The position numbers were made by a program, and so were the translations under genes. 22,038 bases of DNA from a virus. The stretch is taken from IMG/VR virus record IMGVR_UViG_3300036944_000338, positions 1 through 22,038 of that record, one strand, 5' to 3'. The stretch's first letter is position 1; every line of letters starts with the position of its first letter. Positions 302 through 8,228 of this stretch are shown here, one piece after another. A model generated the notes under the pieces. It was not told the DNA's origin. It was given only the letters and a program-made list of their open reading frames with translations, and searched no databases.

Positions 302-1218
302 AAGTTCTTGATTTGTTTGCTGGTATTGGAGGATTTAGTTTAGGACTTGAACGTGCGGGAATGGAAACCGTGGCTTTTTGTGAGATTGATAAGTTTTGCC
401 AGAAGGTACTAAAGAAGCATTGGCCTGACGTGCCTATTCACGAAGATATAACTAAATTGGATGGTAAGCAATATGCAGGAACAATTGACGTTATTTGTGG
501 TGGATATCCCTGCCAGCCCTTTTCAGTTGCAGGAAAGCAAAAGGGAAGCAAAGACGCAAGGCATTTATGGCCTGAAATGTTCAGAATCATTAAAGATGCT
601 AAACCAAGATGGGTCATTGCAGAAAATGTTGAAGGACATGTTAAACTCGGTTTGGACGCCGTACTCGATGATTTGGAAAGTGAAGGTTACACCTGCTGGA
701 CGTTTATTATACCAGCTTGCGCGGTTGCCGCTCCTCACCAAAGAAATAGGATTTGGATTATTGCCAACCCCAAACACGATGGACAGCTTGCCGCCAAGGA
801 GCCAGGAAGCAAAGGAGCGTCAATTCAGCACGACCAGGAAGGGCAGAACTGCACCAGCAAATTTGAGAGAGTGGGTAAATCCCTTGATGTGGCCCACAGT
901 GACAGCGAACGAAACGAAGGGAGCTGGCAGGAGTCGTTATATAGGTTCAAAGAATTTTCGTGGTGCGAAAGCATCCGAAGGGTTGAGGATTTGCGAGGAA
1001 GACAAGATATACCTGAACCCCTTATTTGCCGAACTGATGATGGGTTTTCCCAAAGGGTGGACAGACTTAAATCGCTAGGAAACGCAGTAGTGCCACAAAT
1101 ACCTGAAATTATTGGTAAGTGTATCATGAAATTCAAACAAACTAATGGAGATGAGTATGGAATGGCAAAAGATAGAGACTGCACCAAAAGATGGCACAAA
1201 GCTTATTTTATGGAGTGA
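298..1218 (+). CDS. C5-cytosine DNA methyltransferase (Dcm-like)
   Basis: The product (306 residues) is a DNA (cytosine-5) methyltransferase that would transfer a methyl group from S-adenosylmethionine to cytosine in phage DNA, probably protecting it from host restriction. Visible motifs in order: motif I DLFAGIGGFS at residues 5-14 (SAM binding), motif IV GGYPCQPFS with catalytic Cys72, motif VI AENV at 108-111, motif VIII QRNRIW at 148-153, and motif X GNAVVPQ at 261-267. The target-recognition stretch between VIII and X (about 155-245) is short and hydrophilic, so specificity cannot be predicted. The last ~40 residues lie beyond motif X and overlap the DUF551-like gene by 62 bases. No restriction endonuclease is next to it, so it looks like a solitary phage methyltransferase. 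An unusual second frame is nested inside it at 461-1078. Confidence 0.93.
   Translation: MKVLDLFAGIGGFSLGLERAGMETVAFCEIDKFCQKVLKKHWPDVPIHEDITKLDGKQYAGTIDVICGGYPCQPFSVAGKQKGSKDARHLWPEMFRIIKDAKPRWVIAENVEGHVKLGLDAVLDDLESEGYTCWTFIIPACAVAAPHQRNRIWIIANPKHDGQLAAKEPGSKGASIQHDQEGQNCTSKFERVGKSLDVAHSDSERNEGSWQESLYRFKEFSWCESIRRVEDLRGRQDIPEPLICRTDDGFSQRVDRLKSLGNAVVPQIPEIIGKCIMKFKQTNGDEYGMAKDRDCTKRWHKAYFME
461..1078 (+). CDS. Overprinted ORF nested in the methyltransferase gene (phage 'LLPTP/GFPxGWTDL' family)
   Basis: A 205-codon frame lies wholly inside the methyltransferase gene, offset by one base. It is not an arbitrary shadow. It contains blocks that I recall as a recurrent phage protein family usually found beside Dcm-type genes: LTLFVVDIPASP (residues 9-20), WKVKVTPAGRLLYQLA (72-87), LLPTPNTMDSLPPRS (100-114), LMWPTVTANETKG (142-154) and LNPLFAELMMGFPKGWTDL (185-203). 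These blocks sit on methyltransferase motif IV (508-516), motif VIII (about 739-756) and the motif X approach (1039-1098). Possible starts are ATG 461 and ATG 473; neither has a clear ribosome site, so initiation is unproven. No catalytic motif is evident and function is unknown. The alternative is that this family is only the conserved shadow of methyltransferase motifs. Confidence 0.5.
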   Translation: MVSNMQEQLTLFVVDIPASPFQLQESKREAKTQGIYGLKCSESLKMLNQDGSLQKMLKDMLNSVWTPYSMIWKVKVTPAGRLLYQLARLPLLTKEIGFGLLPTPNTMDSLPPRSQEAKERQFSTTRKGRTAPANLREWVNPLMWPTVTANETKGAGRSRYIGSKNFRGAKASEGLRICEEDKIYLNPLFAELMMGFPKGWTDLNR

Positions 1219-3041: not shown

Positions 3042-3239
3042 ATGAATCAAACAATATTAAGGGCTGGTTGGGACAAGTCGGGGTCGGGGTCGTGGTCGGG
3101 GTCAAGGTCGTGGTCGAGGTCGGGGTCGGGGTCGGGGTCGGGGGTGAGGTCAAGGTCAAGGTCGGGGTCGTGGTCGGGGTCGTGGTCGAGGTCGGGGTCG
3201 GGGTCGGGGTCGTGGTCGAGGTCGAGGTCGGGTTTATAA
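3042..3239 (+). CDS. Low-complexity Ser-(Gly/Trp/Arg) dipeptide-repeat protein
   Basis: A 65-residue protein with a short unique N-terminus (MNQTILRAGWDK) followed to the end by a dipeptide repeat in which Ser alternates with Gly, Trp or Arg (residues 13-64, one Ser replaced by Val35). The codons are almost all TCG alternating with NGG. The start has AGGTG at 3033-3037 with 4-base spacing and lies 12 bases after the DUF6948-like gene, which supports translation. The lack of hydrophobic residues other than Trp, together with the arginines, suggests a disordered chain. No known domain is recognised. Its base composition is far more GC-rich than its neighbours. It could instead be a non-coding repeat that is open by chance in this frame. 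Confidence 0.6.
   Translation: MNQTILRAGWDKSGSGSWSGSRSWSRSGSGSGSGVRSRSRSGSWSGSWSRSGSGSGSWSRSRSGL
3078..3233 (+). repeat. Imperfect hexanucleotide tandem repeat (TCGNGG)n
   Basis: About 26 consecutive six-base units of TCG-GGG, TCG-TGG or TCG/TCA-AGG. Variation is concentrated at one position of the unit (first base of the NGG codon: G, T or A, never C), plus a few TCA for TCG. Because the unit is a multiple of three, gain or loss of units preserves the frame of the encoded Ser-X protein. Confidence 0.95.
3122..3144 (+). other. G-quadruplex-forming motif
   Basis: Four guanine runs (3122-3125, 3128-3131, 3134-3137, 3140-3144) are separated by identical two-base TC loops, fitting the canonical four-tract quadruplex pattern in both the coding strand and the mRNA. 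Three more four-guanine runs lie at 3194-3209. Formation is inferred from pattern only. Confidence 0.65.
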
Positions 3240-7908: not shown

Positions 7909-8228
7909 TTGAAATAGACCAGACTAAATTTGTAACCGCTCTAAATGAAGTAGCGGCAACTGATGCAGGTAAGATAGTTTTTGCAATGCTTAAAGATTCC
8001 TGTAAGTGGGATGCCACTTATGTTGCTTCCGATAACCCACAAGTAACACAATTCTACGCGGCTCAGCGCGGTATATATGGCGGCCTTAGAAAATTAATCA
8101 AGATTGAATACCTAAAAGAGATTGAATTTAACTTTAAGAGAAAACCAGATGACGGACATAGTAAGCCAGCCAGCAAGTCAACCAGCAAGTCAACCAGCAA
8201 GTCAACCAGCAAGCGAACCATCAAGTAG
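7905..8228 (+). CDS. Bbp19-like protein with SKST-repeat tail
   Basis: A 107-residue protein. Residues 8-75 (FVTALNEV...GKIVFAMLKDSCKW...FYAAQRGIYGGLRKLIKI) follow the pattern of the small Bbp19-type phage domain found next to portal genes (hydrophobic helix, conserved Cys, 'GrR..y..l'), known from memory in Bordetella phage BPP-1 relatives; its function is not established. The last ~25 residues are a low-complexity basic tail of SKST units, encoded by a 12-base tandem repeat in the 80-base overlap with the scaffold gene. It overlaps the portal by four bases (ATGA). Confidence 0.7.
   Translation: MIEIDQTKFVTALNEVAATDAGKIVFAMLKDSCKWDATYVASDNPQVTQFYAAQRGIYGGLRKLIKIEYLKEIEFNFKRKPDDGHSKPASKSTSKSTSKSTSKRTIK

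Follow-up and report, generated by a model that had tools for sequence, protein, structure and literature searches.

A nested second frame in a phage cytosine methyltransferase gene very probably encodes a subunit of the same enzyme

The small subunit of the bacterial C5-cytosine methyltransferase M.EcoHK31I is reportedly encoded within the gene of the large subunit, in another reading frame. The enzyme consists of two polypeptides and has the target YGGCCR (Lee et al. 1995, as cited in PMC3404938). Its large subunit carries motifs I to VIII and X together with the predicted target-recognition domain, and its small subunit carries motif IX (PMC3404938). Here, we describe a comparable arrangement in a 22-kb virus record with tailed-phage genes (terminase, head-tail connector, head, tail, and internal virion). 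The whole stretch of DNA that was analyzed, 22,038 nucleotides (nt), is referred to as the window. One of its open reading frames (ORFs; 298-1218, alpha) wholly contains a second ORF (461-1078, beta), which lies in the +1 frame. The features of the locus are as follows.

298 to 1218, + strand: alpha, the outer frame, C5-cytosine methyltransferase (Pfam PF00145 DNA_methylase, 2.5e-50; PHROG 363, 2.9e-86).
310 to 339, + strand: alpha motif I (DLFAGIGGFS), S-adenosylmethionine binding (sequence and alignment).
461 to 1078, + strand: beta, the inner +1 frame, ATG to TAG, 205 amino acids (aa) from the first ATG (ORF list; PHROG 1008, 1.7e-25).
499 to 519, + strand: alpha motif IV (GGYPCQP) with the catalytic Cys72 at 511-513, under VVDIPASP of beta (invariant columns in 50 sequences).
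622 to 630, + strand: alpha motif VI (ENV; E109, N110, and V111 invariant).
730 to 756, + strand: alpha motif VIII (APHQRNRIW; alignment); from about here, the constraint shifts to the beta frame.
758 to 1009, + strand: putative target-recognition region of beta (LLPTPNTMDS..., WPTVTANETKG...; codon-position counts and homology to Spartoi gp40, where it lies in one frame).
1010 to 1069, + strand: putative motif IX of beta (YLNPLFAELMMGFPKGWTDL; M194 and G195 invariant in 50 betas).
1063 to 1095, + strand: alpha motif X (RLKSLGNAVVP; alignment; AlphaFold helix after motif X, residues 267-289).

The initial annotation had described a 205-codon frame inside a cytosine methyltransferase and had regarded both frames as recognizable. 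Both statements were confirmed: the outer frame matches the Pfam DNA_methylase and PHROG 363 profiles, and residues 5 to 203 of the inner one match PHROG 1008, a family annotated as "DNA methyltransferase." Motifs I, IV (PCQ), VI (ENV), and VIII are contained in one alpha chain with the M.HhaI fold, which marks it as a C5 methyltransferase. The recognition domain and motif IX are also present in the enzyme, but they are coded by the beta frame. Thus, the earlier assignment of motifs I, IV, VI, VIII, and X to alpha holds, and it is to be corrected for motif IX, which is absent from the alpha frame and sits in the beta frame. The positions given for the signature blocks of the inner frame over methyltransferase motifs (499-520, 709-772, and 1039-1071) were correct to within one base.

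Additional features were observed around the locus. An upstream frame (2-301) and alpha overlap at ATGA (alpha start at 298, upstream stop at 299-301), which suggests coupled translation of the two. Past motif X, the alpha of the window continues for about 20 residues, a C-terminal tail absent from most relatives. A 66-aa frame (1145-1345, MEWQKIETAPKDG...) begins within the 3' end of the methyltransferase gene; it has no Pfam match and is presumably DUF551-like. Farther downstream, GTCGGG is repeated 26 times in tandem (3077-3232), with two open frames, one rich in Ser, Gly, Trp, and Arg and the other in Val and Gly. A 12-base tandem repeat, CCAGCAAGTCAA, lies at an overlap of two frames (8163-8226), where PASQPASQPAS is read in one and SKSTSKSTSK in the other.

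The number of stop codons expected in the inner frame was estimated by synonymous recoding of alpha, and stops were scored between codon 70 and the point where the match ends. The set comprised 57 nonredundant loci, the window and 56 others, and is unbiased with respect to the inner frame because the outer protein alone served as the query. The +1 frame contained 6 stops, compared to 367 expected, corresponding to an approximately 60-fold depletion, and was fully open in 51 of the 57 loci (0.09 expected). The +2 frame was ordinary (760 stops vs 856 expected). When the window itself was recoded, the mean was 9.1 inner stops, and none of 300 trials left the frame fully open; the real count is 0. 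Moreover, when alpha alone was used to fetch loci, each of the 80 had a beta match in the +1 frame, and the matched stretch was stop-free in 71 of them. These data strongly support that the inner frame codes for a protein and is conserved and widespread. They agree with the earlier view that an open frame of 205 codons is not due to chance; stops in the second frame of homologues, which had been named as a possible refutation, are nearly absent.

The stops were not evenly distributed. In the 57 loci, they were frequent across most of the initial 180 nt of alpha and nearly absent beyond, indicating that the beta frame has its own beginning; its openness starts near the expected beta start and not earlier. 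The ribosome-binding score was -6.8 kcal/mol at ATG 473 and -0.6 at ATG 461, so ATG 473 (residue 5; 201-aa product) is the likelier candidate for the beta start. Ribosome-binding signals precede the inner start codons at 84 of 114 loci, compared to 46% at random positions, and are thus enriched, not universal.

Which frame is constrained was analyzed by simple substitution counts, uncorrected for multiple changes, in 27 independent pairs, with bootstrap over pairs. In this geometry, outer codon position 3 is inner position 2, and outer position 1 is inner position 3. Upstream of beta, 20, 8, and 72% of the changes fell at alpha codon positions 1, 2, and 3, respectively. Over motifs IV to VIII, the values were 28, 13, and 59%, and past the beta stop, they were 25, 11, and 64%. 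Between motifs VIII and IX, they were 60, 20, and 19%, with the 60% at the third position of beta. In this region, beta was conserved (dNN/dNS of 0.27, 0.18-0.34) and alpha was near neutral (dNN/dSN of 1.26, 0.91-1.65), although alpha stops were still avoided. Over motifs IV to VIII, alpha-synonymous change was about halved (0.18 vs 0.335), and alpha-synonymous changes creating beta stops were about tenfold fewer (0.031 vs 0.36). A finer map with 44 pairs showed the same constraint boundaries, near motifs VIII and X. Between the window and its nearest relative (L014), 39, 21, and 18 changes were counted at alpha positions 1, 2, and 3 in the region between VIII and IX, compared to 7, 3, and 22 upstream. 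Three pairs among the relatives L236-L243, used as a single-chain control, gave 43/21/36 between VIII and IX, but this control is not clean because the recognition modules of those rows lie in the +1 frame. In Spartoi, which is truly single-chain, the +1 frame contains 10 stops, and no close relative was available for pairing. These simple frame-specific counts, of the kind that had been proposed as a check on the overlap, are in favor of two coding frames. The switch of constraint from frame to frame within one gene provides an unusually clean natural test case for methods that detect overlapping genes.

The profile of alpha aligned with M.HhaI through motif VIII and then again, weakly, at motif X only. 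In the AlphaFold model, residues 1 to 163 mostly had a pLDDT of >90, residues 165 to 261 were mostly below 50 and predicted to be disordered, and the motif X helix started at a pLDDT of about 94. The best structural matches of the alpha core were M.HhaI structures (E 1.4e-15). In the single-chain enzyme gp40 of Spartoi, the section flanked by motifs VIII and X aligned with beta (E 4e-12; 37% over 104 aa), and the conserved C-terminal half of beta (LLPTPNTMDS..., LNPLFAELMMGFPKGW) corresponds to the same sequence within one frame of gp40. The top solved-structure match to the beta sequence was a DRM-type cytosine methyltransferase at motif IX; at an E value of about 1, this match is only suggestive of the identity of motif IX. 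Modeled alone, beta was predicted poorly (pLDDT 59), and Foldseek against the PDB returned no structural match for this poor model. Based on the gp40 alignment and the weak match at motif IX, the most plausible reading of beta is that it provides the enzyme with target recognition and motif IX.

Taken together, the two nested frames very probably specify the subunits of a single heterodimeric C5-cytosine methyltransferase comparable to M.EcoHK31I. Alpha would bind the cofactor and carry out catalysis (motifs I to VIII) and, past an unstructured connecting stretch, provide the final motif, X. Beta would be translated from its own start codon, about 165 to 200 nt into alpha. Its N-terminal tail would mostly be a shadow of motifs IV to VIII, followed by the target-recognition region and motif IX. 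We infer that alpha and beta assemble into an active, protective enzyme, in which beta would read the DNA target and alpha would flip and methylate the cytosine; methylation presumably shields the phage DNA against host restriction.

The initial annotation had proposed that the family was born by overprinting the methyltransferase. This applies to the N-terminal half of beta, which is overprinted on motifs IV to VIII, and not to the conserved half, whose components are ordinary in methyltransferases and lie in a single frame in Spartoi gp40. An origin of the conserved half by overprinting was rejected, as it is alpha, not beta, that is unconstrained between VIII and IX. A presumed overprinted orphan thereby becomes a readable two-subunit enzyme.

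Could the two frames instead be joined into one polypeptide by programmed frameshifting, with a +1 slip past motif VIII and a return slip ahead of motif X in nested members? The order of motifs I to VIII, recognition region, IX, and X is preserved across the frames, and in L240, Zaka, and Euratis, alpha ends soon after VIII and the remainder is in the +1 frame, as this explanation would have it. However, frameshifting needs neither an open beta over motifs IV to VIII nor an open alpha under the recognition region, and both are kept open. It would also take two slips in nested members, leaves the enrichment of ribosome-binding signals ahead of the inner start codons unaccounted for, and does not fit M.EcoHK31I, which is made of two polypeptides (PMC3404938). 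We therefore regard it as quite unlikely.

Still less probable is that beta is a separate effector, such as an antirestriction factor or a regulator, which merely shares the locus. The N-terminal half of beta, which has matches only inside its own family, would suit such a protein. In contrast, a single-chain enzyme contains a homologue of its conserved half as recognition region and motif IX, the very part that alpha lacks, and beta was never away from alpha among the matches listed. It had been suggested that beta couples the modification enzyme to a partner such as an antirestriction factor; a coupling there is, but the partner is rather the enzyme's own recognition subunit.

An untranslated shadow, conserved only via the overlying methyltransferase, is hardly credible for the inner frame: where beta overlies motifs IV to VIII, in its first half, it is indeed constrained mostly via alpha (beta dNN/dNS of 0.59 vs 0.77 in the nonoverlapping control), but between VIII and IX alpha is near neutral and thus not the cause of the conservation of beta. 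Changes creating beta stops are avoided even where alpha permits them, and the stops themselves are strongly depleted.

The two-subunit arrangement proved to be widespread. Among the matches listed, a methyltransferase lies over beta at 221 of the 222 loci retrieved with beta from viral and bacterial contigs; at the remaining one (L144), alpha is missing because the contig end cuts the locus. No independent copy of the beta gene was found in these 222 loci, among the matches listed. All 12 annotated records obtained from phage tblastn matches to beta also have a methyltransferase over it. The family had been thought to be normally seen as its own gene beside Dcm-type genes, which these counts contradict; the accompanying question of whether beta matches elsewhere overlap a methyltransferase is answered by them in the affirmative. 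Four loci (L175, L222, L292, and L319) have an additional frame change within, probably due to indels. Related stretches number at least 456 in viruses and 178 in genomes, and the bacterial matches include Bacillota, Bacteroidota, Pseudomonadota, Verrucomicrobiota, Acidobacteriota, and others. Thus, the nested arrangement, described for one restriction-modification system, occurs commonly in phages and also in the genomes of bacteria from many phyla.

The annotation of the pair varies: it is recorded as an internal gene (Lily), as two methyltransferases (Bloom), or as one hypothetical protein (R23.9). Often, one frame is called by annotators and the other is lost, so that enzymes are recorded without their recognition subunit. 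For Rhodococcus phage ReT1v-1 (L329), the record annotates the inner frame at 1757-2431 and, of the outer frame, just a late portion (2509-2661). Our literature search returned no paper on point about nested or overprinted cytosine methyltransferases.

When more distant relatives were read in both frames, four layouts emerged, some of them represented by few sequences. In the first, all parts are in one frame (Spartoi). In the second, only the recognition modules are in the +1 frame, and motifs IX and X are back in the outer one (ReT1v-1, 1191A, L236-L239, and L241-L244). In the third, the recognition region and motif IX are in the +1 frame and motif X is in the outer frame (the window and most others). 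In the fourth, the recognition region, IX, and X are all in the +1 frame, as in M.AquI (Zaka, Euratis, and L240). The layout of Filuzino looks mixed. In the tree, layouts 1, 2, and 4 group together and most nested members fall elsewhere, which is compatible with one or more origins; in its labels, L240 and L245 are wrongly given as "nested," and the rows L236-L244 as "single" despite their recognition modules in the +1 frame.

Several of these relatives deserve mention on their own. At L329 (1459-2658), L328, L236-L239, and L241-L244, the methyltransferases are of the actinophage type; repeated LPTPxxxD modules occur only in their +1 frame and motifs IX and X in the outer one, which amounts to a putative nested subunit made of nothing but recognition modules. 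Zaka (L333, 1501-2500), Euratis (L336, 1501-2560), and L240 show M.AquI-like splits with a +1 overlap, annotated as 179 nt in Zaka and 32 nt in Euratis. In Lactococcus phage 4268 (L331, 1501-2083), a +1 frame with a differing C-terminal sequence (SDILEENVDEKYFLSPEKA) lies over a shortened methyltransferase; this may be a second nested-subunit family or a broken gene.

Tentatively, it seems quite possible that the frame boundary moves. The parts keep their order, the +1 stretch starts after motif VIII, and it returns to the outer frame at varying points; compensating frameshifts and inner start codons may have repeatedly redivided the enzyme into overlapping subunits. If so, specificity could be altered independently of the catalytic subunit, through an inner frame made up of repeated LPTPxxxD modules. 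As a lead, the moving boundary offers a testable route for dividing a protein into overlapping subunits.

Compared to single-chain M.HhaI and Spartoi gp40, the locus has all parts in the same order but not in one frame and one chain. As in M.AquI, the enzyme is split after motif VIII into catalytic and recognition subunits (PMC3404938); unlike in M.AquI, where motif X accompanies motif IX in the small subunit, motif X is in alpha here. The out-of-frame HNH endonuclease of ShiLan is also a hidden frame within a phage methylase gene, seen in actinophage methylases, but there it is an inserted homing endonuclease (PMC11855218), whereas here the hidden frame is part of the methyltransferase itself. 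PHROG 1008, gp63 of Lily ("g62 internal gene"), and the paired "DNA cytosine methyltransferase" genes of Paenibacillus phages represent the same nested pair, and in their annotations, the role as recognition and motif IX subunit is not recognized. Like M.EcoHK31I, the locus has motifs I to VIII and X in alpha and motif IX in beta. The small-subunit gene lies inside the large one in another frame, as is reportedly the case there, and both frames are coding here. Unlike M.EcoHK31I, it is phage-borne, and its recognition region is coded by beta, as judged from the constraint between VIII and IX, whereas it is predicted in the large subunit of M.EcoHK31I (PMC3404938), a difference that is not a defining one. 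The locus thus very probably adds a phage example to the nested two-subunit C5 methyltransferases.
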